Source: a virus. From it: a DNA stretch of 25,467 nucleotides. Shown one piece after another: positions 2-25,371 of this stretch; the first letter of the stretch is position 1, and each line of letters opens with the position of its first letter. Location: the IMG/VR virus record IMGVR_UViG_3300024433_000046, positions 1 through 25,467 of that record; one strand, written 5' to 3'. Below the pieces are notes generated by a model. The model saw only the letters and a program-made list of their open reading frames with translations, searched no databases and was not told where the DNA came from. The position numbers and the translations under genes were made by a program.

Positions 2-121
2 GGCGGAACCCTTGGACATCTCTCGACTACTCAAATAGCCTCCACAAGTTTCACCGTCAACTCTAGTGACGCGGGTGATACAAGCACAATTAACTGGATC
101 TTAATTGAGCCTAGCCCATGA
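2..121 (+). CDS. C-terminal end of a tail-fibre-like protein (partial)
   Basis: An open frame enters from the left edge and gives 39 residues before a TGA stop. The last residues include SFTVNSSDAGDTSTINW followed by a short hydrophobic tail. This alternating Ser/Thr/Asn beta-strand ending with a Trp is typical of C-terminal tips of phage fibre or appendage proteins, but too little is present to name a family. The stop overlaps the ATG of the next gene by four bases (ATGA), which supports the frame being coding. What lies upstream is outside the window. Confidence 0.6.
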   Translation, partial: GGTLGHLSTTQIASTSFTVNSSDAGDTSTINWILIEPSP

Positions 122-312
122 GCGATGAATCCGTCATAGCCGTCAAAGAGAGTTCTTTGTTTGGAGCGTCCACGCGCTTCTGGCTCGCGCTCATCATAAC
201 ATGCACAGCCTGCACGATGGCTTTGTGCGGTATGACAATTGACGAGCCTCTTTACAGTGCATTCTTGCTCACGCTCGGGTTTTACTTCGGCCAGAAGACC
301 AAATCACCATGA
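118..312 (+). CDS. small two-helix membrane protein, holin candidate
   Basis: This 64-residue protein has a short charged N-terminus, a first hydrophobic segment at about residues 22-39, a brief turn containing DEP, a second hydrophobic segment at about 44-58, and a basic end (QKTKSP). Two helices with a short loop and a positive C-terminus is a layout seen in small phage holins, which permeabilise the inner membrane. The sequence itself does not prove this role. It is coupled by ATGA overlaps to the gene before it and to the lipoprotein gene after it, so the three are probably co-translated. No Shine-Dalgarno is visible. It could equally be an uncharacterised virion-associated or superinfection membrane protein. 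Confidence 0.75.
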   Translation: MSDESVIAVKESSLFGASTRFWLALIITCTACTMALCGMTIDEPLYSAFLLTLGFYFGQKTKSP

Positions 313-614
313 GGAAACGCGCGTTAATCATATCACTCGGCCTGCTTGCCACGACGGGTTGCGCTCGGTTCTCCACAACGCAGCGCGATGAAAGGACCAA
401 TGAACAGACAGGCGAGACTACCACGATCACCACGAAAGCAGCGGCTTGGACGTTCTTCGACAGCAAAAGCCAGCTCACAACGTGGAAAGCCCAGCAGCAA
501 GAAAACGATCAATCCGCCGAAGTTGGTAGCCTCACCCAAGAGTCCTACGGCACCAACGCGACCGAGTTGATCAAAGCGGTCGCCGAGGGTGTAGTGCGAG
601 GCACCAAACCATGA
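309..614 (+). CDS. small lipoprotein, possible outer-membrane spanin subunit
   Basis: This 101-residue protein begins MRKRALIISLGLLATTGC: a basic n-region, a hydrophobic core and a lipobox (LATTGC) with the acylated cysteine at residue 18. The mature part of about 83 residues is rich in Thr, Gln and Ser with no cysteine or obvious enzyme motif, so it would be tethered to a membrane facing the periplasm. Small phage lipoproteins next to a membrane-anchored coiled-coil protein are often the o-spanin of a two-component lysis system. Here the lipoprotein gene precedes the anchored partner, the reverse of the usual i-spanin then o-spanin order, so the role is only suggested. It overlaps the upstream gene by ATGA. 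Confidence 0.75.
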   Translation: MRKRALIISLGLLATTGCARFSTTQRDERTNEQTGETTTITTKAAAWTFFDSKSQLTTWKAQQQENDQSAEVGSLTQESYGTNATELIKAVAEGVVRGTKP

Positions 615-997: not shown

Positions 998-2470
998 TTA
1001 GCGTCTCCCCCGCTGCGCCGCGATCCTATCCAGCTCCTTGAAAGGATCATGCTCTTCATTCGAGCCATTGAGCGCGTCATCCGCTCGATCCCGTCGCGTG
1101 CCTTTGCTCGTGGGTTCGCTTGCTTCGTAAGCCTCAAGCTGTTTCTTGAGCGCGTCCCGTTCTTCCAGCACCTGCCCAAGCTGTCTCAACACTCTCGGAT
1201 ACGCAATTGCCTGCTGATGAATGCGTGCTGTCGCTTTCACGCGCTCGCCCATGTCGCCGTTCGCGTCCTCAAGTAAACTCCGCACTCGCGCCCGTTCTCT
1301 CGCCATTAGCTTCGCGCCCTCCGCATCATCCGCAGGCTCGCCAAACAGATCCCCATACTGTTCTGTCAGCGCGTTCATCTCGCTCTCGTAGCTCTGCCGA
1401 ATCTTCGCCTGCTGCGCCTGTTGCGCCGCGTTCTCTTTCTGGAAGTGCGTTCGCGCCCGTTCGCCCGCTTCCTTCAGCGCCTCCTTGCGCGCTCCATCCA
1501 GCGCCCGAATATCCTGATAATGCCGCGCTACCTCCTGCACATCCAGCGGGTCATTGAACATTGACTGAATCTCCTGCTTGGCGCTGCGCGGGTCCATGTT
1601 GAGAATACGTTGCAGATCACTCTCGCTCGCCGCCCGTTGCTCGCCGTTCTCGTCCGTCACCGTGAGTGTGTTCGCGTTCTCCAGCGCCTTGCGCAGCGCC
1701 TTTTCCAGCGGCTGCACGTGATTCTTTTGAAAATCTTCGCTCTCCGTGTAGGCGATCGTGCGCAGCTTGTCCTCGTAATCCTGCACGCGCTTCTGCGATG
1801 CATCCAGCTCTTGCGCCAGCTCCAGCGCCTTGCCTTCCGAGCCCTCGCGCAGCTTCCCGCTCAGTGTCTCCAGTTCACGCGCTTTTGCCTCCAGTTCGCT
1901 CTTGAGCTTCGCGTTCTGCTTGAGCTGTTCCTTGTGCGCCCGCCGCACCTGCGGCAGCGGCCCGAGCGCATTTACCTGCGCGTCTAGCGCGGCGTCGTCA
2001 ATGGAAGCAGCGCTTTCATCAGCGATCGGCTTCCGTTCGCTCTTCTTCGTCCCGGCAAGCGCTTGCAACGCTTCTAGCGAATCCTCCCCAATCTGTCCGC
2101 GTTGTTCATCGTCGCGCGCATGCGGCTCCGGCGTATCATCATGTTCGCCAGGCCCATTATCGCCCTCAATCTCAGGTTCGGCGCGCAGCGCTTCATCCAG
2201 CGACGGTGCGGCCTCGTGAATCCTCGGTCCGTTGTTTCTCACGGGATCGGGCGTTTGTCTCGGCGCTCGCTCCGGCGCTCTGGATCTTCCGCTCCCCGCG
2301 ATCTGCACGCCAAAGTTTCCGATTGTATCGAGTCCTCCCGTATCCGGCGCTCTTACTTGCGCGGCGTTAAACGCTGCCTGGTCAGAAGCGCTCGGCTTCG
2401 CGTTAATGGTGGGTGCTGTACGCTGCGCAGGCTTACTGGCAGGCGATGGTGTCGCTGTTGCTGTTGGCAT
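998..2470 (-). CDS. scaffold-like head assembly protein
   Basis: The 490-residue product has no catalytic motif. Its first 150 residues or so are low complexity (Pro, Ala, Ser, then acidic), and from about residue 180 it is largely alpha-helical with long charged heptad runs, such as LKSELEAKARELETLSGKL. It ends in a basic tail (RIAAQRGRR). A disordered acidic N-terminus, long coiled coils and a basic C-terminal capsid-binding end, two genes after the portal, is the profile of phage scaffolding proteins that template procapsid assembly and then leave or are cleaved. In T7-like phages the major capsid gene would come next, but here the operon ends. The start is the ATG six bases after the previous stop, with no Shine-Dalgarno. 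A head-internal structural protein is the alternative. Confidence 0.75.
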   Translation of the reverse strand: MPTATATPSPASKPAQRTAPTINAKPSASDQAAFNAAQVRAPDTGGLDTIGNFGVQIAGSGRSRAPERAPRQTPDPVRNNGPRIHEAAPSLDEALRAEPEIEGDNGPGEHDDTPEPHARDDEQRGQIGEDSLEALQALAGTKKSERKPIADESAASIDDAALDAQVNALGPLPQVRRAHKEQLKQNAKLKSELEAKARELETLSGKLREGSEGKALELAQELDASQKRVQDYEDKLRTIAYTESEDFQKNHVQPLEKALRKALENANTLTVTDENGEQRAASESDLQRILNMDPRSAKQEIQSMFNDPLDVQEVARHYQDIRALDGARKEALKEAGERARTHFQKENAAQQAQQAKIRQSYESEMNALTEQYGDLFGEPADDAEGAKLMARERARVRSLLEDANGDMGERVKATARIHQQAIAYPRVLRQLGQVLEERDALKKQLEAYEASEPTSKGTRRDRADDALNGSNEEHDPFKELDRIAAQRGRR

Positions 2471-2764: not shown

Positions 2765-3000
2765 ACGTGGATGTATTTGTTGACTATGCGCCCGTTATCG
2801 TCCATTCGATCATCGTACAGAGTTAAGATTCTTTGAGAGGCAGGGCTCGGCCAGAAGATACGGTATTTCGCGCTTTCCCACTCCGGATTGATCACCCACG
2901 TAGGCTCAAGCGCAGCTTTCCAAATCCTGCCGCCTCCTGGCAGGAAATGCGGCGCAACGCAGGCGGTGAGTATCGAGTTGAGAAAGGATCTGCGGTTCAT
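2761..3000 (-). CDS. small protein with a twin-arginine-like N-terminus
   Basis: The 79-residue product begins MNRRSFLNSILTACVAP, which matches the twin-arginine export pattern (R-R-x-F-L) followed by a short hydrophobic stretch and a Gly-rich turn. The remainder contains several Trp and Tyr (WVINPEWESAKYRIFWPSP) and ends charged. Short proteins with this kind of N-terminus occur in environmental phage genomes, but I know of no defined function. The cysteine at residue 14 is not in a good lipobox. It overlaps both the portal stop and the next start by ATGA. Either it is exported by the host Tat machinery, or the RR motif is coincidental in a virion protein. Confidence 0.7.
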   Translation of the reverse strand: MNRRSFLNSILTACVAPHFLPGGGRIWKAALEPTWVINPEWESAKYRIFWPSPASQRILTLYDDRMDDNGRIVNKYIHV

Positions 3001-5363
3001 TTCGCTGTGCTTTCATTCGCGCCCACTATCGCCTGTTTTTGCAATTCCTGCAACACCCTCCCGCGCGTTTTAATCGTCGTGTTCTCAAGCTCGTTTGCCG
3101 TGCGCGCGTTTTGCTCTTGAATTTCCTGCGCCGTTTTGGCGTCGCGTCGCTCAATCTCCGCGCTAAACGCCGCGTCTTTGTGCTGTTGTTTCTGCTCCGC
3201 CGTCATGCTTGCAATCTGCATCTTCTGCTGCGCCATCGCCGCCGTGGCCGCGATCTTTGCCTGCACTTCGGGCGGCACCTGTGCGCCTTGCTGTTGTTGC
3301 TCCTGCATCCGCTGTTGCAGCGACTGCGCAATCGGCGCGACCGCCTGAATCAACTCTTGCAGACCTGCCTCAAGCTGCGCCGCCTGCTCCCGCATCGGCT
3401 CATCCTGACTCACAAGCTGGATCACGCTCCCCACGTGTTGCGCGGCATTGAAAAACCCCGTCAGTTTGTCCGCGATCATGATCTCCACGCCTGGCGTCTG
3501 CGCCTCATCCAACCCTTGAATCTCTTGCGCCACCTGGCCGAGCAACTGCAAAATCACGCCAGCATACTCCACTGGATTCACATTGCGCGGCATCGGATAC
3601 GGCAGCCCTTGCAACAGCACGCCCACCGCCATCGTCGCTTCCTTCGGCGCGTTGCTTTCAATCGCGCCCGTCAGCGGCACAAGCAAATTCGCCGTGGCTG
3701 CATCAGAGAAAGCCAGCGTCGCCTTGTGCAAGATCTGTCTCTGCGATTGCGGGTCATACGCAGCCCGCCACTGCATGAGCTGACTCGCCTGCAACTGCTC
3801 AATCGCCCTGTTCCCGCCTCCAAGCACCCGGCTCGGCTCGATATCCCAGTTATCCACGTCAAGCACGATCGACAGCGCTTGTGGCGGTATCCCGCCTTCC
3901 AGCAGTCGCGACACGAGCTTCATGTGCATGGGATGACGGCTCTCTCTGCTCGCCAATCGCCTGCACACTTCACGATACAGCGGCGTGATGCCTTCGTATG
4001 TCTGGTTCAACATCGCGCTTGTCAACGCCGCGCTTGTCTGCGCGCGAATAATCTCCGCCGTCGCCGTCTCAGGCGTCAATCCCCGTCCTCCGCCTCGCGC
4101 ATCCGGCATATATGCGGCGCTGCTCGCATCCATTAACTGTTGATTCTGGCTGATCCCCATGAGCGCGAGCTGTTCATTAACTTCCCACCGCTCGTTCTTT
4201 GTCACGAATTGCAACCCATCAGGCACCGTCCCCATGTGCAACAAATCCACCTTCTCCAGCTTTTCGCGATCATCCTCGCCGACGTTGCGGAAGTATTGCA
4301 GCAGGCTCTCGAAGATCGAATCCGTAAACCGGCATCTCAAATGATTCTGCACGAGACAAATCGAGTAGAGCAAATACCCGTAGCTCCTGACCGAATGATA
4401 CCTGCACGGCGCGACCAGGCTCACATTGCCAAACTGCCAGTGAATCTGCTGCCGCCAATCCTTCGAGTAAGCCTGCTTGCGCTTCTTTGAATCGTAGAGG
4501 AAGCAATTCTTGTCATCGTTGTTGAACTCGCTTCTCAAGCTCTCCGGCTGCAACGAGTCGTAATCCAACACGATCCTGCGCACCCACGCGCCTTCCTCAT
4601 CCTCCTCCTCCTCGTGATAAAAGAAATCCCAGGCATAGATCACCGGCGCTGCGCTGCTCACAAAGAACCCGGAGTTGCTTTTCAAATCCTCTTCCAGCTT
4701 CTCCGGCATGAGCCATCTGTTCCCGCTCCACGTCGGTTGCAACTCCTGTTTCGCTAGCCCCGCTAGCATCTTGCTCACAAGCTCCTGGTTCCACCCTGGA
4801 TCAACCTGCTTTCCATGCGTCATCTCATACAACTCCGCCCAGGTCCATTCGCGATAAATCGCGTAAAACGGCAGATTCCGCATGTTCGTGTAAGTTCGCG
4901 TTGGCACAAACACGTCGTCAATTCCAAGTTCCACCGGGATTGGAGCATACTTGTTTGTCCAATAAACCGGCTGGATCCCATGCAACGTCACGCTCCGGCT
5001 CATGTTTGAGAGCAAATCCTTCCACTCGCCGCTGCGTTTGAGCAATCGATTGACCTCCTCGGTTAAGACTGCGCTCCACTGCTCCCGAGCCCATCTCGGC
5101 CCGCGATCCAGGCTGATCTTGAAGAACTCACCCGGCTTGAGCAGCGCGTTCTCCATCTGCTGCACCGCCTGATGCGCCCTCACAGGCCCTTCGAGCGAGT
5201 TGTAATTCGCCCAGATCTTGTTCGCTTTGCGCTCCTCCTCCGTCCACGGCTGGTTGCCGTTGAAGAGCCAGTTGATACGTGCTCGGTTCTCCGCCAGCGG
5301 CAGCGTCGCGATCCGCATTTGCTGCACTACAGTTTGAATGGAAGAGGCGTCTTTGAAGGTCAT
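2997..5363 (-). CDS. portal protein (head-tail connector)
   Basis: This 788-residue protein is the best portal candidate. The first 600 or so residues are mixed alpha/beta with many aromatics (WLFNGNQPWTEEERKAN near the start, WVRRIVLDYDSLQPESL in the middle). From about residue 620 on it is almost purely helical and Gln/Ala rich (QQRMQEQQQQGAQVPPEVQ), matching the crown and coiled-coil barrel of podovirus portals. The length fits long podovirus portals. The dodecamer would form the DNA entry and exit channel, nucleate procapsid assembly with the scaffold encoded downstream, and bind terminase during packaging. The 53-base gap in front of it is the longest in the head operon and holds a candidate promoter. 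No Shine-Dalgarno is visible. An acidic run EEEEDEE lies near residue 254. Confidence 0.88.
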   Translation of the reverse strand: MTFKDASSIQTVVQQMRIATLPLAENRARINWLFNGNQPWTEEERKANKIWANYNSLEGPVRAHQAVQQMENALLKPGEFFKISLDRGPRWAREQWSAVLTEEVNRLLKRSGEWKDLLSNMSRSVTLHGIQPVYWTNKYAPIPVELGIDDVFVPTRTYTNMRNLPFYAIYREWTWAELYEMTHGKQVDPGWNQELVSKMLAGLAKQELQPTWSGNRWLMPEKLEEDLKSNSGFFVSSAAPVIYAWDFFYHEEEEDEEGAWVRRIVLDYDSLQPESLRSEFNNDDKNCFLYDSKKRKQAYSKDWRQQIHWQFGNVSLVAPCRYHSVRSYGYLLYSICLVQNHLRCRFTDSIFESLLQYFRNVGEDDREKLEKVDLLHMGTVPDGLQFVTKNERWEVNEQLALMGISQNQQLMDASSAAYMPDARGGGRGLTPETATAEIIRAQTSAALTSAMLNQTYEGITPLYREVCRRLASRESRHPMHMKLVSRLLEGGIPPQALSIVLDVDNWDIEPSRVLGGGNRAIEQLQASQLMQWRAAYDPQSQRQILHKATLAFSDAATANLLVPLTGAIESNAPKEATMAVGVLLQGLPYPMPRNVNPVEYAGVILQLLGQVAQEIQGLDEAQTPGVEIMIADKLTGFFNAAQHVGSVIQLVSQDEPMREQAAQLEAGLQELIQAVAPIAQSLQQRMQEQQQQGAQVPPEVQAKIAATAAMAQQKMQIASMTAEQKQQHKDAAFSAEIERRDAKTAQEIQEQNARTANELENTTIKTRGRVLQELQKQAIVGANESTAK

Positions 5364-5391: not shown

Positions 5392-5420
5392 ATACTAACG
5401 GGTTATTATTGGAGTTTCAA
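5392..5420 (-). promoter_or_regulatory. candidate sigma70-type promoter in front of the portal gene
   Basis: Reading the minus strand, TTGAAA (5420-5415), a 17-base spacer and TAGTAT (5397-5392) resemble -35 and -10 boxes. They lie in the only AT-rich gap of the head operon, about 30 bases before the portal start. The -35 box overlaps the last codons of the preceding glycosyltransferase-like gene. This could let portal and scaffold be expressed independently of the sugar genes. Assigned by eye only. Confidence 0.3.
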
Positions 5421-6112
5421 TAAGCGATTATCACAGGCTTTGGTTCATCTCGTGGGGGCAAGCTCAGGATGTCGTCCAGCATCTCATTTGCGTGGTCCGG
5501 ATGTTTTTCGCTGTGAAAGAGTTGGTGCGTTATGAGTCTGTCATCACCGACAGGCAAGTAACGCGCTCCACGCCTCCATCTTAAATATCGTCCAGCAGGC
5601 GGGCAGCAGTAATTGAGCTGCTTCTTCGCTCCGCATCGCCACAGCCATGCGTTCAAGTGTGGTTCTTCTCCTGCAAACTTCCAATCCGCTGTTCTATAAT
5701 GTTCGCGTATTTCTTCCAAGCCGGACTTCAAGTTCGCCTTTGCTCTTACTCCCGCCACAACTACACACGACTGTCCATAGTGCATCGTTTGATCGTTCGC
5801 TTCCACTCCCGGCACCGAGTAACCTGTCAAGTGCCGTGGCAAGAGCGGATAGTCAAAGTCATCTCTCAAGGCAATTTCCATCAAATCATCCAAGCAGCGA
5901 TTAGGTACAATATCCGCGTCAAGGATTACCGCCGCGTCAAACGGGCTATTTACCAAAGCGTCCAGCTTTCCCATGTATATTTCATCCAAGTTCTTGTCCA
6001 CCAGCTCAACCATCTCAATCGAATGTTGCGAGAAGCTTGTGATGCCTTTCTCAAGCACTTTGGCCAGTTCCTTGAATGATTCATTGAATACTGTGATATA
6101 GCCTGTGCTCAT
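5417..6112 (-). CDS. glycosyltransferase-like protein (GT-A type), 231 residues
   Basis: The likely catalytic signature is AVILDADIVPNR at about residues 61-72: a hydrophobic strand ending in a D-x-D that would bind the metal and nucleotide-sugar phosphate. Further on are GEEPHLNAWLWR (about 148-159), a typical acceptor-side acidic segment, and a late HQLFHS. The length is that of a minimal GT-A catalytic domain without a membrane anchor, so it should act in the cytoplasm. It starts seven bases after the previous gene and is the last member of the sugar gene set before the portal. Donor and acceptor cannot be read from the sequence. The glycosyltransferase assignment is likely, the specific activity unknown. 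Confidence 0.75.
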   Translation of the reverse strand: MSTGYITVFNESFKELAKVLEKGITSFSQHSIEMVELVDKNLDEIYMGKLDALVNSPFDAAVILDADIVPNRCLDDLMEIALRDDFDYPLLPRHLTGYSVPGVEANDQTMHYGQSCVVVAGVRAKANLKSGLEEIREHYRTADWKFAGEEPHLNAWLWRCGAKKQLNYCCPPAGRYLRWRRGARYLPVGDDRLITHQLFHSEKHPDHANEMLDDILSLPPRDEPKPVIIAY

Positions 6113-6119
6113 AGTCTGA

Positions 6120-6848
6120 CTACTCTAAAACATCGTGCTGACGAGTGTTCGTGATTTGCCGCTTGTAGGGTGGTTCTCCATCAAAGGAAATGAGCCCATG
6201 CTCGCGTAACAAGATCAACTCTTTTGCTGTGAATTTTTGAGCAGTCCAAACTTTGTCGGTGATATTGAAAGGGCGATCTCGGTCGTAGCCGAATGAATAG
6301 AATCCGGCTAATTCGGGATTGGTTTGCACGAATTTAAAGAACTTGTCTTCCGCTGAAACGTGAGGAGTCGCGCTTGTTTGTGTTTCTGTTCCGAGAAACC
6401 ATCGCACAAACTCAAGACACCAATCCCATTTGAACAGGCAGAGTGAATTCGCTGCCCAAGGCATCTTAAGTCTGCCGTAGATCATTTTGCGGTCTCCAAT
6501 CTCATCATACATCTGTTTGATGTAGGGTCCGAAGGCAAGCAGATCCTGCTCCTTATAGACGAGGTCGCATTGATTGAGCCAAGCCAGGAGCGCGCCTGTG
6601 CAAACCACGATTTGATTGGCCGGGAACTTAGGCGGGTAAACTCCGTGCGTATTGGAATCCACCGTGTCTCCAACCAGATTGATCCAGTCGCCCGGCGCGT
6701 CTTTGATTGTATGGCCGCCCATAGAGATGATGCAGACTTTTTGCGGTTTTACATCCGCTTCGATCGTGTTTCGCCACCAAATAGGATAGAACCAATCCAT
6801 ACCGCTCTCCGGCTTATTGAAATAGCCGCTGACTACAAGATATTTCAC
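6120..6848 (-). CDS. glycosyltransferase-like protein with an atypical acidic motif, 242 residues
   Basis: The start is a GTG whose G-T-G-A overlaps the stop of the methyltransferase-like gene. The product opens with a hydrophobic strand (KYLVVSGYFN) and continues with WWRNTIEAD. At about 95-105 it has LVYKEQDLLAFG, where a GT-A enzyme would normally carry D-x-D; here the order is E-Q-D. A further acidic site, HVSAEDKFFKF, and a late YKRQITN follow. The overall pattern suits a small GT-A-like fold, but the altered motif means it may be inactive, use a different metal arrangement, or be a relative with another role. Soluble, cytoplasmic, no signal peptide. Confidence 0.65.
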   Translation of the reverse strand: MKYLVVSGYFNKPESGMDWFYPIWWRNTIEADVKPQKVCIISMGGHTIKDAPGDWINLVGDTVDSNTHGVYPPKFPANQIVVCTGALLAWLNQCDLVYKEQDLLAFGPYIKQMYDEIGDRKMIYGRLKMPWAANSLCLFKWDWCLEFVRWFLGTETQTSATPHVSAEDKFFKFVQTNPELAGFYSFGYDRDRPFNITDKVWTAQKFTAKELILLREHGLISFDGEPPYKRQITNTRQHDVLE

Positions 6849-7330
6849 GGTCGTTTAAAAATCGCCCATCCGTTGCGGTCGGTTTGATCATCGCCAATCA
6901 CAGCCCACTTCAAATTCAGCAGCATGGCGCGTTGCTTCGCGTTCTTTCTTTCCTTTGTGTCATCGAGCGCTGCTATCGTAAGCCTCGGCAACAGCGCATC
7001 AAACTCTTGATCCGTTGTCTCGTCGCTGCCATCGAATAGAACCATATCAATCGCTTGCGGCAGTTCGTCTATTACACCGAGCGCGTGTCCGTTGATAAAG
7101 CGAATGCGCGGGTCTTTATACCATCTGGATGCCTCCAGCCACATTTCAGGGCTTTGTTCAATCGTCCATATGCGCTGGCTTGGTCGAATCAAGCCTAGTG
7201 CAAGACAAAGCGTGCTTCCCAGCCCATGCCACGTGCCGATCTCCACAATCTTCTCGCATTGCTTTGCAAGCTCTGTCAGTGCGTCACCGAACTTCGACCC
7301 CGGCAGAATCTGTCCTTTAGGTTCGCTCAT
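6845..7330 (-). CDS. class I SAM-dependent methyltransferase-like protein, small
   Basis: The 161-residue product has the SAM-binding glycine-rich motif IVEIGTWHGLGST at about residues 28-40, an acidic residue after the next strand (WTIEQS), and VLFDGSDETTDQEFDALLP at about 97-115, with a DD near 123. The arrangement resembles the compact methyltransferases of the Methyltransf_24 type found in polysaccharide clusters. It would transfer a methyl group from SAM to a sugar or other small acceptor. The start at 7330 is chosen because its ATG overlaps the preceding stop (ATGA); an upstream in-frame ATG at 7363 would overlap the previous gene by 37 bases. Flanking glycosyltransferase-like genes suggest a sugar O-methylation role. 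Confidence 0.8.
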   Translation of the reverse strand: MSEPKGQILPGSKFGDALTELAKQCEKIVEIGTWHGLGSTLCLALGLIRPSQRIWTIEQSPEMWLEASRWYKDPRIRFINGHALGVIDELPQAIDMVLFDGSDETTDQEFDALLPRLTIAALDDTKERKNAKQRAMLLNLKWAVIGDDQTDRNGWAIFKRP

Positions 7331-8169
7331 ACTCTTTCCACTCTCACGCCATCCCCAACCCACGGCATGTATTGTTTGAGATCAGCGGGCCACTCGTGAT
7401 TCTCTTGCAGCCTCATCCACCCTTTCACCGCGTCTTTATAGAGCTTCCCGCACTCGTTGTTGCTCGATCCATAGTATTGCTCTTTGAACGCAACCTGCGC
7501 TTCCGTCGCATACGCATAGTGGTCAAACACGAGTCCTGCCGCTTCCGTCTCCGCGTGCGTGAACGGTCTTTCCGTGATCCCGTCCACCACAGGCGGCTCA
7601 TGGCTCTTCCATCTCATCCCCGGCTCCCATCGCCACACGCGCTTCCACTCGTAAGCTTCATTGTTGCCGTAGCCGTTTCTGCTTGTAATCATAATGTCCC
7701 GCCCCACGAAGTAGCGACAGTAGAAATGCGCGCAGTTTTTCACTCGATGCTCCGCGAACATCCGCGCCATGCACATGATCTGCTCTGCGCTCCAGCACTC
7801 ATCCGCATCCACCTCCCACACGAGGCTCGGCTCTCTGATCGTGTGGCATAGCGCATTGAGCATGTGCGTCTTCCCGTTCCACAGCTCGCGCTGCATCAAC
7901 TTAACGCGCGTATCCCATGCCGCGATGCTTTCCAGATACCCCGTCGTGCCGTCGATCGACAACCTCGGCGTCATCGGCGCGCACCATTTCGTGCAATGCT
8001 TGGGCGCGGCCACGCCTTCGGCAATGCGCCACTCCCACTCAAGCTCCAGTTTCTCGAACTCGCTCAAATGCCGCGTGATAAACGGCATCGCATCCAGTGC
8101 GAGCGTTACGAATACGATGCGCGGCGTCTGCGGCGTCGGGATCTTCATGGACTTTCTCTTCGTTTTCAT
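7327..8169 (-). CDS. glycosyltransferase family 2-like protein, 280 residues
   Basis: After a basic N-terminus, a strand at about 17-25 (RIVFVTLALD) begins the nucleotide-binding half. The metal-binding signature is VWEVDADECWSAEQI at about 117-131, a clear D-x-D in the context of GT2-like enzymes. A HEPP segment near 190 and DHYAYATEAQVAFKEQYYG at about 216-234 match the acceptor-side region of glycosyltransferases that act on surface glycans. No membrane helix is present, so it is cytoplasmic. It overlaps both neighbours by ATGA. Of the sugar genes here it has one of the most conventional signatures. The sugar donor is not deducible. Confidence 0.82.
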   Translation of the reverse strand: MKTKRKSMKIPTPQTPRIVFVTLALDAMPFITRHLSEFEKLELEWEWRIAEGVAAPKHCTKWCAPMTPRLSIDGTTGYLESIAAWDTRVKLMQRELWNGKTHMLNALCHTIREPSLVWEVDADECWSAEQIMCMARMFAEHRVKNCAHFYCRYFVGRDIMITSRNGYGNNEAYEWKRVWRWEPGMRWKSHEPPVVDGITERPFTHAETEAAGLVFDHYAYATEAQVAFKEQYYGSSNNECGKLYKDAVKGWMRLQENHEWPADLKQYMPWVGDGVRVERV

Positions 8170-8864
8170 ACCCTCAACAGTTCAAAATCCTTCCTATAAC
8201 TCGGCGGCAGCGCATTCGCTCTCGCATATAAATGCACGCATACCCGTTCCGCCTTCAACTCCGGCAGCGAGTCCGCGAGAATCGCAAAGCTTGAATCAAT
8301 CATGTGCAGCTCCTTTGCGTTCTCCAACAGCCCCCAATACGCGAAGATATTCTCCGTTGCCTTCGCGTCCGGTCGCACAATCTTCATGCCGCACGGCAAT
8401 CTGTTCGCAGGTATCGCAAACCCGCGCGCCGCGTCGTCATGCACAAATGCATAGTCCTCGCGCGGCCTGCTCAACTCACAACTCGGCTGTCGCGAGCATC
8501 TGAACTCATTCCATCTGAGCTGAAAATCCAGTCCTGCTTGCACGTACATGCTCCTGTCCCACGACTTGTGGTCGTAACACTTGCGATCTCCATACATGCC
8601 CAGGCATAGCACGCGCTTCCCGTGGCTCTTAACATGTGCGGTCATCTGATCCGCGAGATCATCGTCGCTCAAGCCCCGGTCATTCTGCGTGTTTACCAGC
8701 GCGATGCGCGTGCAATCGCGGAACATGAACGCCAGGCTCGTTTGATTGTGCGGCTTGCACAGCACCGTTACGTCGTGATCTTGCGCGAAGTGGCGCGTAA
8801 GCGCGTTGCACACGAGATGATCGCCCAAGCCGAGATGACCTCTTATCAAAATCTCTTTCGTCAT
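8166..8864 (-). CDS. GT-B type glycosyltransferase-like protein (heptosyltransferase/GT9-like), 232 residues
   Basis: The N-terminal GHLGLGDHLVCNALTR at about residues 9-24 closely resembles the first loop of GT9-type (ADP-heptose:LPS heptosyltransferase-like) enzymes, where the glycines shape the active site. Near the end, ELHMIDSSFAILADSL (about 185-200) matches the donor-side loop of the second GT-B domain. At 232 residues it is much shorter than typical two-domain GT9 enzymes (about 320-350), so the domains are trimmed. It overlaps neighbours by ATGA on both sides. Such enzymes extend lipopolysaccharide cores or O-glycans. Whether this one keeps transfer activity is uncertain because of its size. 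Confidence 0.75.
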   Translation of the reverse strand: MTKEILIRGHLGLGDHLVCNALTRHFAQDHDVTVLCKPHNQTSLAFMFRDCTRIALVNTQNDRGLSDDDLADQMTAHVKSHGKRVLCLGMYGDRKCYDHKSWDRSMYVQAGLDFQLRWNEFRCSRQPSCELSRPREDYAFVHDDAARGFAIPANRLPCGMKIVRPDAKATENIFAYWGLLENAKELHMIDSSFAILADSLPELKAERVCVHLYARANALPPSYRKDFELLRV

Positions 8865-9553
8865 TCCGCATACCTTTCATTTACCCTCATCATCCAATGC
8901 TCCGGGTGCGGCAAATCATCCGTGCCTACCACCTCGCCCACGAATCGGTCTCCGTTTATCCCGCCGGGAAACGGCTTCGCTTCCGGCCATAGTGCCCGCG
9001 AGCAAGAATCATGCTGCAAGCAGCTCTTCTTCGCGCCCGGCCAAACGCGCTGCGCTAAAAAAGCTTGATCCAATCCATAGCTTGTTTTCCAGATATAAGG
9101 GCGCGCGCAAAGCTTGCTCTTGATGATCGCTTCTCTCATGCTCGGCTTGATCAATCCTCCTTTCGCGCCCCACATACCGGCTCCCATAGGCAGCCAGTGG
9201 TGCGGATGATCGCGCATTACATGCCAGTCGAGCCCGCCGTCAATCCACGCGCCCACGGCAAGCGCTTCCCGCAAGCACAATCGAGAGTCCGCGTCCCTCA
9301 CGATAAACCGCTCCGCGTCGTCCATCACGCAGAACCGCCAGAACACAGCGTCCGCGATCCCATCGACCGGCCCGCGCAATTCCACACCGATCTTCTTCAA
9401 CGTCGCCGTCACAACCTTCGGCACGTCCGGCGCTGCGTAGCACACCACTTTCCACCCTGGATAGACGGAAGGCGCAAGCTCCGCGTTCTTTATCATCCCG
9501 TGCGTGTAAAGCGGATTGGAGCCGAAGAGGGAGAAGGAGATAATGCTGCTCAT
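8861..9553 (-). CDS. glycosyltransferase-like protein with RDADSR motif, 230 residues
   Basis: The product begins with a hydrophobic strand (SSIISFSLFGSNP) and has FIVRDADSRLCLREA at about 83-97, where D-A-D is the likely metal and donor-phosphate site. HVMRDHPHHW (about 111-120) and GAGMWGAKGG (about 124-133) follow, then a late helix containing YGLDQAFL. This set, RDxDSR then MRDHP then GMWG, recurs in uncharacterised GT-A-like proteins from environmental genomes, which I recognise as a pattern but cannot name as a family. Cytoplasmic, no anchor. It starts one base after the previous stop (TAGCATG) and overlaps the next start by ATGA. Confidence 0.75.
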   Translation of the reverse strand: MSSIISFSLFGSNPLYTHGMIKNAELAPSVYPGWKVVCYAAPDVPKVVTATLKKIGVELRGPVDGIADAVFWRFCVMDDAERFIVRDADSRLCLREALAVGAWIDGGLDWHVMRDHPHHWLPMGAGMWGAKGGLIKPSMREAIIKSKLCARPYIWKTSYGLDQAFLAQRVWPGAKKSCLQHDSCSRALWPEAKPFPGGINGDRFVGEVVGTDDLPHPEHWMMRVNERYAE

Positions 9554-9554
9554 G

Positions 9555-11138
9555 CTAGAAATTACTGATCAAACTCGGCATCCCGTTCTTCGCGTAAAAC
9601 TCAATCGCCCGGTCCCGATTCCACATTTTCGCCGCGCTGTTCTTATGCTTATCGCTCGTCCATGACCGATCATGTATCTCATGCAGCACGTATCCTTTAT
9701 CGATTTCGCACGCCGGAATCAATTGTTCCCAATTGAGCTTCGTGGTAAACACGCCCGCGTCTCTTCTAATCATCACCGCAAGCACAAGGTCAAACTCAAC
9801 CTCTCCGAGAAAGAAATCCGGTATCTCATTCCACCAGCGCAGCAACCACCGCTTCTTAAACGCGAACAAATCCCGTCCAAGATCATGCACGCCGCGCTGC
9901 GCCAGGACATTCGGCTCCGTTTCATACAGGCTCTTCTCGACCTTGTTGAAATTCACCCGAAAGCTTCCGCAGGCGCTCACATGTTGCAGCTTCTCTTCAA
10001 TCGCATCCAGCACTAACGGATGCAAAATCGTGTCGTTGTTCGTCCACAGGATCACATCGTCTTTATCGCGCGCGCATGTCATCGCCGGAATCAGCACATC
10101 CTTTACATACGGCAGCGCCCGCTCATCGCCCACCTCCCGAGCATCCCTGGGATAATCGCACTCCCACACGTGCGCGGGTTTGAGCTTGCCTGCTTTGTAA
10201 AGCCTCTCCCACGAGCGCAGCGCTGCCTCCGTGCGCCTCTGCGCTCCTTTATCACGCTGGCTGTGCATCTCCACAGCGTGAAATAATCTCAATGGCTCGC
10301 GCGTTACCAGCGTCGTCGCGTAACTCGCCTTCTCCCCATGTTCAATTGCCACTTGCAATTTAAACGCCATGCAGAGTTGCGGAATCGTCGCCTCTGTGTC
10401 CTTGCGCAACAGCGAGATCAATGTTCCGTCCTTGCAGCGATGAAACAGTCCCGTAGCCCTCGGCACATCCTCCAGCGTCATCGCGTTGCGCGGTTGTCCG
10501 CTCGTCTTGCGCTTCACAAACGTGGGAGGCAGTCCCTTCTCGCCGATAAAATTCCAGATCAGCTTTGTGTGGCTCGTCATCGGCAGCACGAGATCCGTCA
10601 TCGCCACGTCCCACGCCCGTCGCGTCTTGTTCTGCACGGTGATTTTGAGCAGCTTGTCCAGCACGTTCTTGTCGCCCGGATAAACCGCCACGCCACTGAG
10701 CATCCGCTCCGGCAAACCCTGCTTGTCCGGCACAACCACCTGTCCCATGAAAAGCGCCTTGTTGCGCGTGTAGATCCTCTCAATCTCGCCCAGCCACGTG
10801 GAACGCATCGGCACGCAATCCGGCTCCAACCACAGCCACGGAGCGATCACGCCCGCTGTTTGCGTGAGATGCCTCAGTGCCGTTTCAAACATCCAATTTG
10901 GTCCGATCGGCCATTTCTCCGTGGACAGTTCAAACGGCGTCGCCACGCTCTTCACGCTCTTGAAGCAGCGGCGCGCGACCGAGTAAAGCTTCGAGCACTC
11001 CATGTCCGTGAGCTTGCAGTCACGCACAAGCAGCGCGTCATTCTCCTCGCATCGCCCTAGCTCCTCGATCCAGTCGAGCAAGTTCTCGGCGAGTTGCAAA
11101 TCCGAGCGGCAGAATGGAAGGACAACGAGGAGTTTCAT
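9555..11138 (-). CDS. two-domain glycosyltransferase-like protein, 527 residues
   Basis: This is the largest member of the sugar set. The first half starts KLLVVLPFCRSD, a typical Rossmann-like opening, and has WLWLEPDCVPMRSTWL at about 101-116 with an acidic E-P-D in the metal-site position. The second half (from about 290) contains DDVILWTNNDTILHP at about 360-374, a second GT-A-like site, followed by a conserved-looking HDLGRDLFAF and DFFLGEVEFD. Tandem GT-A domains would let one protein add two sugars or alternate units, as in some bifunctional polymerases. The start at 11138 is chosen for its ATGA overlap with the upstream stop; an upstream ATG at 11153 gives five extra residues. Confidence 0.75.
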   Translation of the reverse strand: MKLLVVLPFCRSDLQLAENLLDWIEELGRCEENDALLVRDCKLTDMECSKLYSVARRCFKSVKSVATPFELSTEKWPIGPNWMFETALRHLTQTAGVIAPWLWLEPDCVPMRSTWLGEIERIYTRNKALFMGQVVVPDKQGLPERMLSGVAVYPGDKNVLDKLLKITVQNKTRRAWDVAMTDLVLPMTSHTKLIWNFIGEKGLPPTFVKRKTSGQPRNAMTLEDVPRATGLFHRCKDGTLISLLRKDTEATIPQLCMAFKLQVAIEHGEKASYATTLVTREPLRLFHAVEMHSQRDKGAQRRTEAALRSWERLYKAGKLKPAHVWECDYPRDAREVGDERALPYVKDVLIPAMTCARDKDDVILWTNNDTILHPLVLDAIEEKLQHVSACGSFRVNFNKVEKSLYETEPNVLAQRGVHDLGRDLFAFKKRWLLRWWNEIPDFFLGEVEFDLVLAVMIRRDAGVFTTKLNWEQLIPACEIDKGYVLHEIHDRSWTSDKHKNSAAKMWNRDRAIEFYAKNGMPSLISNF

Positions 11139-11491
11139 GGTTTGATCCAGCACCGGGCGTCAAGCGCTTCCATCTCTTCGCTCGTCATCTGTTTCCGAAT
11201 CATCGCCATCGGTTCGAAAACCTTTAGTTTCAATTCGCAGCCGCACGCTCCGCAGATATTCAGCCGTTCGTCGAAGGAAGTCTTCAATGTCATGCTGGAT
11301 CTCATCTCGAACGCGCGCGTCACCCATTTGGCGAAGCTCCCAGTCAAGCTCTCGTACAAGTGCGATGATTCGTTTTTCGGGCAAGTCGAGCAGATGCTTG
11401 CCCTGTGCTCCGCGACGCCCTTTCCAACCGGTTCCGCTCCGTTGATCCACCATTCCGTGATCCTTTTTGTTCCCGTGATGAGTCGATTCAT
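11135..11491 (-). CDS. cysteine-rich, probably zinc-binding protein, 118 residues
   Basis: Cysteine pairs occur as CSTC at residues 34-37 and CGACGC at 80-85, with a last Cys near 114, so a treble-clef or zinc-ribbon-like metal site is likely. Between the pairs the sequence is helical and basic. The spacing from CSTC to CGACGCELKLKV resembles short Cys-rich phage proteins of unknown function. The start at 11491 is preferred because ATGA overlaps the previous stop; the longer form from 11524 would overlap it by 37 bases. It lies between terminase and the sugar genes. It could help packaging or act as a small regulatory nucleic acid-binding protein, but this cannot be decided here. Confidence 0.72.
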   Translation of the reverse strand: MNRLITGTKRITEWWINGAEPVGKGVAEHRASICSTCPKNESSHLYESLTGSFAKWVTRAFEMRSSMTLKTSFDERLNICGACGCELKLKVFEPMAMIRKQMTSEEMEALDARCWIKP

Positions 11492-11805
11492 GGTTTCTTG
11501 CGCTTCCTGACGCAGCCTTCGCACGTGCTAGGCTCTTGCGCTCTCACATGCGCAGCCGCCATCTCCGCGTCCATGTCCTTGCACCACGCGCCGTCGCCAA
11601 GCCGTTTGCACGTGTAAGCCTCCATCAAGTGCTTCGCGTCATTCGCGTTCAACGCATGTGCGGGGTTGCTTGTCCAATGCTTTTTGATCTGTTCGACGAC
11701 GATCCCGTGTGACTGCAATGGCTCGGGCACTTGCCACTTGCACTTCGGGCATTTGTAGCGCCAGCCGCCTGGCGGATGCTTGCGTTTGTTAATCAGCGTG
11801 AGCAT
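11488..11805 (-). CDS. cysteine-rich, probably zinc-binding protein, 105 residues
   Basis: The product has YKCPKCKWQ (Cys 19 and 22), single cysteines near 66 and 75, CEGC at 95-98, and several histidines between them. Two metal sites are possible. The C-terminus is strongly basic (CVRKRKKP), suggesting nucleic acid contact. No family is recognised. The first knuckle followed by a helix with His43 and His50 is reminiscent of a C2H2-type or zinc-ribbon fold. It starts one base after the 34-residue membrane protein gene (TAACATG) and overlaps the next gene by ATGA, so it is translated with terminase. Confidence 0.72.
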   Translation of the reverse strand: MLTLINKRKHPPGGWRYKCPKCKWQVPEPLQSHGIVVEQIKKHWTSNPAHALNANDAKHLMEAYTCKRLGDGAWCKDMDAEMAAAHVRAQEPSTCEGCVRKRKKP

Positions 11806-11806
11806 G

Positions 11807-11911
11807 TTAATTGTCGTCTCCGCTTCCGCGCCTGATCCAGTAGCTTATCAGCAGCGCGACCACAAAACTGATCACAAACCATGCGCCGAGTATGACAAGA
11901 AACTCTTTCAT
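11807..11911 (-). CDS. 34-residue single-span membrane protein
   Basis: A short frame runs from an ATG overlapping the terminase stop (ATGA) to TAA at 11807, one base before the next ATG. The peptide starts MKEFLVILGAWF, forms one hydrophobic helix over residues 4-25, and ends with a basic RR and an acidic GDDN tail. Exact tiling between two real genes, leaving no gap on either side, is the main argument that it is coding. Small membrane peptides in phage late operons can be holin- or antiholin-like or can anchor assembly factors. Function unknown. Confidence 0.65.
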   Translation of the reverse strand: MKEFLVILGAWFVISFVVALLISYWIRRGSGDDN

Positions 11912-13698
11912 GCCGTCAATTGCAGCTTCTTCCACTTCTCCTCGCGTGTATCTTTAAGCTTCCAGAGCCACTTGAAATCGCGCTTCTTCTGCGCTTCTCC
12001 CTCCAGCTTGCCAAGCGGGAATCCAAGCCTTCTTGCGCCTTCGAGCCCTACAACCAAAGCATCTGTGGTGTCGGGAGAGCGCCCGAGCCTTTTCTTCATC
12101 TCCTTCTTCGGCTCTGCTTCCATTTTGTTGCCCTTGACGATGCTGTAGAGGCGTAAGCTCGCTTCTTTAGCTATCGCCTCTGTCAACCCGCGCAATTGAT
12201 CTGCCTCTGTCGTGTATCGAAGCGTGAACCAAAGCTCAGTCACAAACTTCTCAAAGACATCCACGCATGGCAGCAAGTCCCCTTTATGCGGACCTTCCAT
12301 GTATTTACGCCCTATGAAGTTCGGCCTGTTTGTAGCCTTCCCGCCGAACTCGACCGACTGAATCTCCACACTCCAAATCCTCATGCAAGCCGCGGTGAAA
12401 CTGCTCCTGCCCGTGCCGTCATAGAAGAATCTGCGTGGTGGGATATTCAGTTTATGGCACTCTTCCATGATCGCAGCGGCCAGTCGATCCTCTTGCGTAC
12501 CCTCGCCGCGTTCCGTGAGATCGAATACTTTCGGCAGCGTCATTAAAGCGATTCTCCATTTGTGCTCCACATCTTTGCCGAATACTAGCGGAATCCCTAC
12601 GCTTTTATCGCCATGCTCCAATGTGTAACTGATGTCGGCGCAATAGAGTGTTGTTAACTCCCCGCTTCCCCACGTCACAGAATCATAGGCGTTGAACTGC
12701 TCGCATATTTGTTTGGTGATGATCCGCATCTCCAGCGTCCCACGCGGAATCTTCCCGCCCGCCATCATGTTGTACAGCGGCGTGCCTTTGCCGTAGTTCT
12801 GCTCGCACTCCATTAAATGGTTGCGCCCGATGAGCTTTTTGAACGGCTCTTGTCCCTCTGGATAATCCAGATTCGGCGAGTCCTCCCCCGGCAACTGAAT
12901 CGCAACGCTCTTGAACAATTTCGTTTTGTAAACCCGAGCTTTGTCCGAGTCGCTAATTGCGTCCCATCCTTGATCAGGCTCAGCCGCATCACCAAGAGGC
13001 GTGGAGAGATCGCCAAGGTTTCCGAGCGCGATGAAAAGTGATCCGTCATTCGCGGCTAGATTCGCCATCGAGCGCCCAATCGCGTCCGGCATGAGATGAT
13101 ATTCGTCTGCGATCACGATCACGCGATCGTTCTTAATACCCACGAAGTCGCCTAGTCCGACCCACTCAGATCCCTTCTTCACAGGCCGTCCAATGATGCC
13201 ATCGCGAAACTCGCGTCCCTCCACTTCGCGCCCATCCGTCGTGAGCATTTGCGCGCTGTCCACAAGCACTCCGGGCAGCGCTGGATATCGCTCCTTCCCG
13301 CGCCGCCAAATCATCTTGATCTCGCCCCAGATGCGTAGATTCAGCATCTCCCGCGTCGTGGTCGAGACCAGCACCGTTGTCCCGCGCGGCATGGCACTGT
13401 AAATCGCCCACGCGTACAAACTCGCAATAAAAGTCTTCTGCGAACTCGCGGCTCCAAAGATCGTCACGCGCCTGTGCCCGGCGCACAGCTCCCTCAAACA
13501 CATCTCGCCCCACCGGTGCCAGTAAATCCACGGATGAACCTTGTGCGTCAACTCCTTGATATGATGCGCGAGCCCCATGCCGCATTGCGTTCCATTGGGC
13601 TCCGTCCAGCGTCCTCCTTTGCGAATACACGAAAGCTCGATCGCCACAGGCTCTGGATTCGACCATTCGCAACCGTATTTGATGACGCCGCCAGCCAT
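11908..13698 (-). CDS. terL: terminase large subunit (DNA packaging ATPase-nuclease)
   Basis: The 596-residue length is normal for TerL. Residues 78-90 hold VTIFGAASSQKTF, the packaging ATPase P-loop, although Gln replaces the usual Gly before KT. VIVIADEYH at about 193-201 is the Walker B with catalytic D-E. The RNase H-like nuclease appears in the second half with acidic residues at CADIS (Asp355), FYDGTG (Asp427) and SPDTTDAL (Asp543, Asp546). It would bind the portal, pump DNA into the procapsid and cut it. An in-frame TAA lies three codons upstream, so this is the first ATG. There is no Shine-Dalgarno. It is the first gene of the leftward operon. No small terminase subunit is recognisable in the window. 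Confidence 0.93.
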   Translation of the reverse strand: MAGGVIKYGCEWSNPEPVAIELSCIRKGGRWTEPNGTQCGMGLAHHIKELTHKVHPWIYWHRWGEMCLRELCAGHRRVTIFGAASSQKTFIASLYAWAIYSAMPRGTTVLVSTTTREMLNLRIWGEIKMIWRRGKERYPALPGVLVDSAQMLTTDGREVEGREFRDGIIGRPVKKGSEWVGLGDFVGIKNDRVIVIADEYHLMPDAIGRSMANLAANDGSLFIALGNLGDLSTPLGDAAEPDQGWDAISDSDKARVYKTKLFKSVAIQLPGEDSPNLDYPEGQEPFKKLIGRNHLMECEQNYGKGTPLYNMMAGGKIPRGTLEMRIITKQICEQFNAYDSVTWGSGELTTLYCADISYTLEHGDKSVGIPLVFGKDVEHKWRIALMTLPKVFDLTERGEGTQEDRLAAAIMEECHKLNIPPRRFFYDGTGRSSFTAACMRIWSVEIQSVEFGGKATNRPNFIGRKYMEGPHKGDLLPCVDVFEKFVTELWFTLRYTTEADQLRGLTEAIAKEASLRLYSIVKGNKMEAEPKKEMKKRLGRSPDTTDALVVGLEGARRLGFPLGKLEGEAQKKRDFKWLWKLKDTREEKWKKLQLTA

Positions 13699-13984: not shown

Positions 13985-15124
13985 ATGTCGCAAGCGATCC
14001 CGAGCCCAGTTGACTGCTGTACGCCCTGCCCAGACGACATCACCACGCAGCTTCCGGGACCACAGGGCGCGGCGGGCGCGGCGGGTACCAACGGCACGAA
14101 CGGCGTCAATCCTTTCACGACGCTTAGCAGCGGTTTCACTGTGCCCGCTGAACTTGCCACAGTTCAAATCACCGTAGCGACTACAAGCTGGATGGTGCAA
14201 GCGCAAGGCGCGGTTGAAGGCCAGATACTCTACATTCAGTTTGCCGGGCATTACGAGGTTGTCACGGTGGATAGCGCCGTGCTCGTGACGGTGCGAAATC
14301 TTGAAGATGCGGCGAATAGTCTTTACACCGACAATGCGCCTCCAGCCACAGCCATCCCCACCGCCGGGCGCGTCTCCCCCGCAGGTTTGCAAGGCCCGGC
14401 GGGCACAAGCGCGGGCGCATCGTTTCTCATCGCAAACAATCTCTCCGAAGGCGTTGCGGCTACAATGCGCGGCAACCTCGGTCTCGGCACCGCCGCTCTC
14501 GGCACCACCGGCGTGGCCGACACCAATGTCCCGGTCATCAACGACGCGGCTGGTCTCACCGCCGGTGAAGCCGTATTTGCCACAGCAACGGGCGTTGAAT
14601 CTCTCGCGGCAGGTCCTGCTCAAACCGCGCTTGGTCTCGGCACAATGGCGCTTCAATCCGCCGCTGCTGTAGCCATTACAGGCGGCGCGCTTAACGGCAC
14701 TCTCGGATTAACTACACCGGCGGCTGCCGTTGTTACCACTCTCGCAGTTGGCACAGCCTCTCTTGTCATCGGCACTAACACTATTGCAGCCACTAATTTC
14801 TGGCCTGCAAGCGCAATTCAATCTCTTCTAGCTGCTACGACTGTTCTTCCCAACGCTGCCAAGATCAAAGTCGTTGGCAACGGCGGAGCGGTCGCACTCG
14901 TTGCCACACCCACAATCACATCTCCCGCTAGCGACGGACAACTCCTTATCATCCAAGGCACTAGCGATGTTAATACCGTTACATTTCAAGATGAATCCGC
15001 CCTCGCTGGTTCAATGCTTGAACTCGGCGCGGCATCACGTCTTCTCGGTCTTGGCGACATTCTCGTTCTCACGTGGGATTCGACTGACTCCAAGTGGTAC
15101 GAAGTCTCCTTTTCGAACAACTAA
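13985..15124 (+). CDS. tail fibre / host-recognition protein with short collagen-like tract
   Basis: The 379-residue product starts with a Cys-rich end (VDCCTPCPDD), then a short Gly-x-y tract GPQGAAGAAGTNGTNG at about 25-40, a beta-rich domain to about 125, a second short GPAGTSAG tract, and Ala/Gly/Thr-rich repeats with the phrases GNLGLGTAALGTTG and ALGLGTMALQ, typical of trimeric phage fibres. The C-terminal 100 residues (from AKIKVVGNGG to WYEVSFSNN) form a beta-rich tip that I recognise from many environmental phage fibres, probably the receptor-binding or trimerisation head. It is the first gene of the rightward operon, just downstream of repeat copy 1. Confidence 0.82.
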   Translation: MSQAIPSPVDCCTPCPDDITTQLPGPQGAAGAAGTNGTNGVNPFTTLSSGFTVPAELATVQITVATTSWMVQAQGAVEGQILYIQFAGHYEVVTVDSAVLVTVRNLEDAANSLYTDNAPPATAIPTAGRVSPAGLQGPAGTSAGASFLIANNLSEGVAATMRGNLGLGTAALGTTGVADTNVPVINDAAGLTAGEAVFATATGVESLAAGPAQTALGLGTMALQSAAAVAITGGALNGTLGLTTPAAAVVTTLAVGTASLVIGTNTIAATNFWPASAIQSLLAATTVLPNAAKIKVVGNGGAVALVATPTITSPASDGQLLIIQGTSDVNTVTFQDESALAGSMLELGAASRLLGLGDILVLTWDSTDSKWYEVSFSNN

Positions 15125-25361: not shown

Positions 25362-25371
25362 ACTCACTCCT
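25362..25371 (-). promoter_or_regulatory. strong Shine-Dalgarno site of the LamG gene
   Basis: On the minus strand AGGAGTGAGT immediately precedes the ATG at 25361, with a five-base spacer after AGGAG. It is the clearest ribosome binding site in the window and decides the start of the LamG gene. Most phage structural genes here lack such a site. Confidence 0.8.

Follow-up and report, generated by a model that had tools for sequence, protein, structure and literature searches.

The virus record IMGVR_UViG_3300024433_000046 of IMG/VR (25,467 bases, all of which constitute the window analysed here) represents a bacterial virus known from environmental DNA alone, and carries among its head genes a block of seven open reading frames (5417-11138, minus strand), the first of which is predicted to encode a tandem glycosyltransferase (GT). 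Many related viruses have a sugar gene among their head genes, and a reshuffled set of genes often follows it; these viruses may therefore decorate their virions with sugars of their own making. On balance, the block probably combines a head-linked priming GT with a swappable cassette for elongation and methylation, the whole glycosylating a virion protein.

Organization of the gene block

The left half of the window is mostly on the minus strand, and a divergent operon in the right half encodes a collagen-like protein, a sulfotransferase-like protein, internal virion proteins and structural proteins (named by position). On the minus strand, the gene of the terminase large subunit (TerL, 11908-13698) is followed by two small genes (z105 and z129), the seven genes of the block (from 11138 down to 5417: GTtan, GT5, GTB, GT3, MT, and the slots designated GT2 and GT1), the presumed portal gene, two further small genes and a scaffold-like gene; the proteins encoded beside the block on its own strand are head proteins. 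The original prediction, made from the sequence alone, joined the block to terminase and portal: the arrangement is indeed nearly gapless, but z105 and z129, neither of which is a GT gene, intervene after TerL, and the portal has been called without a profile match. With the start codons chosen (for GTtan, the ATG at 11138, with a GTG five codons further upstream), four-nucleotide overlaps are found at z105/z129, z129/GTtan, GT5/GTB, GTB/GT3, GT3/MT and MT/GT2, and the remaining junctions are GTtan/GT5 (+1), GT2/GT1 (+7) and GT1/portal (+53). Inside the block itself, four of the six junctions are such overlaps, the other two being those of +1 and +7.

The tandem glycosyltransferase

The 532-residue product of GTtan (9555-11138, minus strand) consists of an N-terminal domain (residues 1-253), here named EPDC, and a C-terminal domain. 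When the protein was folded by AlphaFold2 together with 44 relatives, the predicted local distance difference test score (pLDDT) of EPDC was about 95 and the C-terminal half of the same model was poor; folded alone with 20 relatives, the C-terminal domain reached 88.7. The EPDC model matched glycogenin in the PDB (Foldseek E value 3e-7; VIA Z 14.3 over 198 residues, root mean square deviation 3.8) and other GT-A enzymes too. The C-terminal domain matched RmlT and TarP by Foldseek (about 5e-6), and by VIA it matched heparosan synthase (Z 12.6), ppGalNAc-T2 (11-12), and TarP and RmlT (10.6), the 50 matches listed being nearly all glycosyltransferases with Z from 10.6 to 12.8. Because the models of both domains match GT-A structures, the tandem-domain GT originally proposed is borne out.

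Residues E110, D112 and C113 of EPDC are invariant in 10 of 10 aligned sequences and make up an acidic DXD-like motif, with a putative function in metal or nucleotide-sugar binding. On the strength of its modelled folds, GTtan is the one gene of the block that may be firmly annotated as a phage-encoded GT. Its EPDC domain is assigned by the same models to a GT-A family, the window member of which is recognised by neither Pfam nor PHROGs; an EPDC profile run against the sequences of the PDB gave unrelated weak matches only. Among the 45 members of the GTtan alignment, Pfam detected Glycos_transf_2 in two and not in the window protein, and the Glycos_transf_2 match in one relative (L031) falls outside the EPDC domain. 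In another relative (L017), EPDC and the C-terminal domain belong to one 788-residue protein, in which they flank a match to GT9 that is below the threshold.

Conservation of the block and co-divergence with head genes

The order TerL, z105, z129, GTtan, GT5, GTB, GT3, MT, portal of the window recurs on a 53-kb contig (L030), with the insertion of a 108-residue gene and an HNH-like gene (by eye), and with a different 222-residue protein replacing GT2 and GT1. Sequence identities to L030 are 50% for GTtan, 41% for GT5, 45% for GTB, 53% for GT3 and 55% for MT, and among the head proteins 48% for TerL, 32% for z105, 39% for z129, and 50% over the first 465 residues of the portal and 41% over the rest. 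Between the two genomes, 55-71% of four-fold degenerate sites differ in the five shared block genes, and the conservation of the block is therefore old. When distance matrices were compared, EPDC correlated with the portal (r 0.78, 39 loci), z129 (0.79, 43 loci) and TerL (0.67, 30 loci), the correlation between portal and TerL being 0.88; in permutation tests, each of the correlations of EPDC with a head gene was reached in 0 of 2000 permutations.

Distribution of the EPDC domain and contents of the cassettes

A scan of IMG/VR found 134 EPDC relatives, and the best 80 of the 134 were kept; collapsing at 90% identity resulted in 59 non-redundant loci, including the window. The locus table consists of 85 loci, including the window, after removal of duplicates (L018, L047, L048, L083, L098) and loci lacking EPDC (L019, L027, L029, L100); L078 gave no row. 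Genes of the relatives were called as a mechanical chain of open reading frames on one strand, and their gene counts are therefore approximate.

In 47 of the 59 loci, EPDC is no more than three genes away from TerL, z129, portal or scaffold. It is between TerL/z129 and the portal in 28, after the portal or scaffold in 10, after TerL/z129 with no portal seen in nine, just before TerL in three, before the portal with no TerL seen in three, and beside another structural gene in two. The 28 are non-redundant loci with TerL/z129 upstream; before collapsing, EPDC is followed by the portal in 44 loci. The number of further genes of at least 150 codons between EPDC and the portal in the 28 loci is zero in nine, one in three and four to seven in 16. 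The order kept in L030, the proximity of EPDC to a head gene in most loci, the congruent divergence and the GT-A folds uphold the original placement of the block with the head genes, and the conservation sought in related phages is present.

Twelve loci were found through z129: nine have EPDC, two that lack it (L027 and L029) are short contigs, and in one (L019) a DUF5672 protein (Pfam 5e-16), of a GT-like family, occupies the place of EPDC between z129 and the portal. When 82 block proteins (76 from relatives, non-redundant at 55%, and six from the window) were scanned with Pfam, the commonest among the 25 of 32 families listed, with overlapping counts, were Methyltransf_24 (13), FkbM (9), Methyltransf_3 (6), DUF6492 (6) and Radical_SAM (5), followed by HNH (4), Glycos_transf_2 (4), Glyco_tranf_2_4 (3) and CmcI-type (3). 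Where EPDC comes after the scaffold gene, an NAD epimerase is encoded in L103 and L090, and a C-methyltransferase with Methyltransf_13/14 domains in L103. HNH-type genes are located within the GT block in L030 (10666-11151) and in the blocks of other relatives, and are a possible vehicle of cassette change.

A search of 50,697 phage records gave no match to GTtan, z129, GT3 or the GT2 slot, one chance-level match each to MT and the GT1 slot, six records for GT5 and four for GTB. One cellular locus with an EPDC relative (L110, from an alphaproteobacterial metagenome-assembled genome) was found among 84,980 genomes; a single peptide pattern was searched, so other cellular relatives may exist.

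Other genes of the block

Of the six GT genes and one methyltransferase gene originally predicted, the seven-gene block and the methyltransferase are real, and of the six GT genes one is firm, another three have fair support and the last two are plausible. In profile scans of the seven proteins, only MT scored above a Pfam cut-off, PHROGs gave nothing below an E value of 0.01, and NCBIfam had no match for the 10 window proteins scanned.

GT5 (8861-9553, minus strand, 230 residues) and GTB (8166-8864, minus strand, 232 residues) have no meaningful Pfam match, but each has a relative in a glycan island of Synechococcus phage S-SRM01 (41.5% identity and E value 3e-32 for GT5, E value 1e-27 for GTB) and another in a 735-kb uncultured phage. 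GT5 also has a relative in Acinetobacter phage MD-2021a that is annotated as a SPINDLY-family O-GlcNAc transferase. GTB may be a GT-B enzyme of class GT9, to judge by its N-terminal motif; neither GTB nor its relatives in L030 and S-SRM01 have a Pfam GT match. GT3 (7327-8169, minus strand, 280 residues) is GT2-like, with a match to Glycos_transf_2 (E value 0.054) that at 13.9 bits falls short of the 23.3-bit cut-off; its L030 relative has no match, and in L031 a GT3 relative is downstream of EPDC and GT2 domains within one reading frame. Because their relatives are found in a sugar island or fused to GT domains, the annotation of GT5, GTB and GT3 as GTs is fairly supported by sequence comparison.

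MT (6845-7330, minus strand, 161 residues from the ATG at 7330) is predicted to be a small class I S-adenosylmethionine (SAM) methyltransferase, as it passes the Pfam cut-off for Methyltransf_24 (E value 2.2e-7, 32.2 bits versus 26.3), with 38.1 bits for its L030 relative. Searches of PDB sequences with MT, GTB and the sulfotransferase-like protein singly gave weak matches. The GT2 slot (6120-6848, minus strand, 242 residues) encodes an orphan protein with nothing below an E value of 0.3 in family and relative searches and no hhalign match to the EPDC-set alignment. The GT1 slot (5417-6112, minus strand, 231 residues) encodes a possible GT-A protein, the only match of which is sub-threshold (Mannosyl_trans3, E value 0.12). 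Neither slot had a relative in IMG/VR scans or among 3,228 open reading frames of the fetched loci (phmmer), and tblastn searches of phages and plasmids gave nothing beyond one chance-level match (E value 0.2). The GC content at third codon positions (GC3) is 0.54 in the GT1 slot, 0.56 in the GT2 slot and 0.56 in MT; the four GT genes that precede them have values of 0.69-0.75.

Proposed function and alternatives

The block is proposed to be a soluble, phage-encoded glycan-assembly cassette that would be co-expressed with the late head genes. The EPDC domain (the N-terminal half of 9555-11138) would most likely attach the first sugar to a virion protein, priming being the simplest role for it because no other GT has stayed close to the head genes throughout the lineage. 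The glycan would then be extended, in a putative order and with putative sugars, by the second GT-A domain, GT5, GTB, GT3 and the proteins of the last slots; O-methylation of a sugar would fall to the small SAM methyltransferase; and sulfate might perhaps be added by the sulfotransferase-like protein of the other structural operon. An acceptor in the cytosol fits this scheme because the seven block proteins look soluble by hydropathy: the largest 19-residue value among them is 1.53, and none has a strongly hydrophobic segment. Since the last slots differ between relatives, each virus would have a surface glycan of its own. A broader proposal, which we advance tentatively, is that a large uncultured lineage of phages possesses a virion glycan locus resembling an O-antigen locus, in which a priming GT of the head operon, beside the cysteine-rich z129, would be combined with interchangeable genes for GTs that elongate the glycan, for O- and C-methyltransferases and epimerases, and possibly for sulfotransferases as well, such that virion glycans diversify as capsules do.

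Several observations weigh against glycosylation of a virion protein by the block. EPDC is farther than three genes from a recognised head gene in 12 of the 59 loci, in four of which no structural gene was recognised. The case for priming is weakened because, of the nine loci where EPDC is the only gene of at least 150 codons between TerL/z129 and the portal, at least three (L020, L034 and L035) have more GT-like genes past the scaffold gene. Two others of the nine (L015, L058) are short contigs, and as loci were searched instead of whole genomes, support for a solo role of EPDC is weak. The blocks of relatives also contain HNH and radical SAM proteins, one C5 DNA methylase and one match to the 8xMP membrane-protein family, as in an insertion hot spot. 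The identity of the GT1 and GT2 slot proteins as GTs is unproved on sequence grounds, and the best PDB match of MT is a weak one (E value 0.025) to the O-methyltransferase YrrM, a tRNA methyltransferase. The cellular EPDC relative belongs to a 1935-residue protein (L110:6813-12620) that combines an EPDC-like stretch with domains of the GT2 and FkbM types and a match to sulfotransferases below the threshold, and that is encoded in what reads as a capsule locus (neighbours named by eye).

This last observation bears on the main rival, that the block remodels a surface glycan of the host (capsule, lipopolysaccharide or similar) late in infection, so that progeny do not re-adsorb and superinfection is blocked. 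This role retains a real if minor chance of being the correct one, because the single EPDC relative found in cells is within a GT2-FkbM protein of a capsule-like locus; the cyanophage fucose island in which GT5 and GTB have relatives is compatible with it too. Against it, the seven block proteins have a maximal hydropathy of 1.53; among the 76 block proteins of relatives, five reach 1.8, and one of these is membrane-segment-like by eye. No flippase, polymerase or initiating phosphoglycosyltransferase is among the 25 of 32 Pfam families listed, and long co-divergence with the portal and z129 would be unnecessary for such a role.

It is improbable that the region is an accessory-gene hot spot near TerL that has gathered sugar genes by chance, without joint function. 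The variable number of further genes (0 to 7, HNH and other unrelated genes among them) is as such a hot spot would have it, and so are the last two genes of the window, orphans with GC3 of 0.54-0.56, lower than the 0.69-0.75 of the preceding four GT genes; however, GC3 alone is no marker of recent arrival, because MT has a GC3 of 0.56 and is nevertheless conserved in L030. EPDC stays near head genes despite its differing place (before TerL, before the portal or after the scaffold gene) and co-diverges with them, and L030 has retained the order of five block genes, all of which argue against chance accumulation.

Decoration of hypermodified phage DNA by the GTs is very improbable: viral GTs that place glycans on DNA have been published (Pyle 2024, as cited in PMC12619734), but a search for enzymes of the thymidylate synthase family was negative in all 20 relatives scanned (51-59 kb, perhaps fragments; positive control 9 of 14), a null that covers the relatives, the 25-kb window being possibly a fragment of its own virus. 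The FkbM proteins, C-methyltransferase and epimerases that accompany the GTs are indicative of sugars, and one C5 DNA methylase is present among the 82 block proteins. A Tet_JBP search of the 20 relatives was negative and its control equally silent. The original preference for sugar over DNA modification is thus sustained by the thymidylate-synthase result, by the sugar enzymes in the blocks of relatives and by the relatives of GT5 and GTB in a fucose/FkbM island.

Comparison with known systems

Serotype-converting gtr clusters of temperate phages contain phage GT genes that alter a surface glycan, and their hallmark is multi-membrane-span proteins of the GtrA/GtrC type. Such proteins are absent from the window block, in keeping with its largest hydropathy value. 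In S-SRM01, some 0.7 kb separates the relatives of GT5 and GTB, and genes for fucosyltransferases, GT2 proteins and an FkbM methyltransferase adjoin them, a likeness to the window block; the S-SRM01 island differs in possessing genes for GDP-fucose synthesis, and its neighbours over 18.5 kb are photosystem, metabolic and hypothetical genes with no named head gene. The multidomain GT2-FkbM protein of L110 resembles GTtan in its EPDC-like stretch (27% identical across residues 7-121 of the query) and differs in being cellular, in being a single polypeptide of 1935 residues and in its location in a capsule-like locus.

Mycobacteriophage Che8 and its relatives carry glycans on capsid and tail subunits (Freeman 2023; accessible portions of PMC11256854, PMC13313380 and PMC12619734), and as far as those portions extend, virion glycans are reported for actinobacteriophages only. 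Phage-encoded GTs are the feature that Che8-type mycobacteriophages share with the window; in the related phage Maravista, putative GTs are described in the same portions near the 3′ end of the genome, in contrast to up to seven genes in the head operon here. A literature search found no title that concerned cassettes of GT genes located between those of terminase and portal, which is no proof that they are unpublished, as subscription papers were largely outside its coverage. Glycosylation of phage virions is known already, and the modular cassette linked to head genes, with its putative acceptor, seems to be new, not having been seen in that search. If the proposal is true, particle glycosylation would be a basic trait of a whole uncultured phage lineage with a simple genetic handle, namely one conserved GT gene plus clear cassette swaps, and it would become testable whether phages vary their particle surface by means of sugars, for example to escape binding by other organisms.

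Head genes and other features

TerL (596 residues) was identified by tblastn matches to annotated terminases of Streptomyces phages (best E value 3e-5) and to an unannotated phage record (E value 4e-9). The PHROG for terminase large subunit was matched by two of 17 head proteins of the lineage, three of the 17 being TerL relatives. The small genes z105 (11488-11805, minus strand) and z129 (11135-11491, minus strand, 118 residues from the ATG at 11491) were recognised by profiles in relatives and, for z129, by alignment as well; in many relatives a single open reading frame has both profiles. Six cysteines of z129 are invariant across three aligned sequences, and its profile is present in 60 of 94 loci (L015-L108, duplicates included), where it is a frequent neighbour of TerL, the EPDC GT and the portal. 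The sole notable match of z129 is PHROG 13558, of unknown function.

The presumed portal (2997-5363, minus strand, 788 residues) is assigned by its size and its position between TerL and the scaffold-like gene, in the window and in relatives; profiles of Pfam, PHROG, NCBIfam and PDB gave no convincing match. As a direct query of IMG/VR it found no relatives, but relatives reached through the GT and z129 searches are present in 66 of the same 94 loci. The scaffold-like protein (998-2470, minus strand, 490 residues) of the head operon was named by position and composition by eye, and has relatives in 25 of the 94 loci. No major capsid gene was recognised by eye in the window, and the record is therefore probably a fragment. 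A search of the window for tRNA genes found none. By eye, holin-like and spanin-like genes are present at the left end of the window (118-614), the right end having a gene that is LamG-like (24774-25367).

The sulfotransferase-like gene of the divergent structural operon (18944-19516, plus strand) may possibly belong to the same pathway as the block; its match to Sulfotransfer_4 is below the cut-off (E value 0.0032), and it also matches PHROG 10855, annotated as hydrolase (2.9e-9). A 56% identical copy, itself sub-threshold, adjoins the same structural genes in L002. The collagen-like protein (13985-15124, divergent from TerL, with a short Gly-X-Y run) was considered as an acceptor and is unsupported in that role; it does not track the block, because Gly-X-Y runs occur both in relatives with none or one of the block genes and in some that have six. 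A run of 50 successive Gly-X-Y triplets is in a 318-residue minus-strand open reading frame (L068:620-1576) of a relative without extra block genes. Among other genes near the portal, L018 (13182-14129) and L020 (14837-15787) encode right after it a protein with a sub-threshold match to dimethylarginine dimethylhydrolase (E value 0.0068 in L020), and L022 encodes downstream of it an Asp/Glu racemase (5948-6619, 7e-25) and an ATP-grasp-like protein (6612-7994, 1.8e-5, below cut-off).

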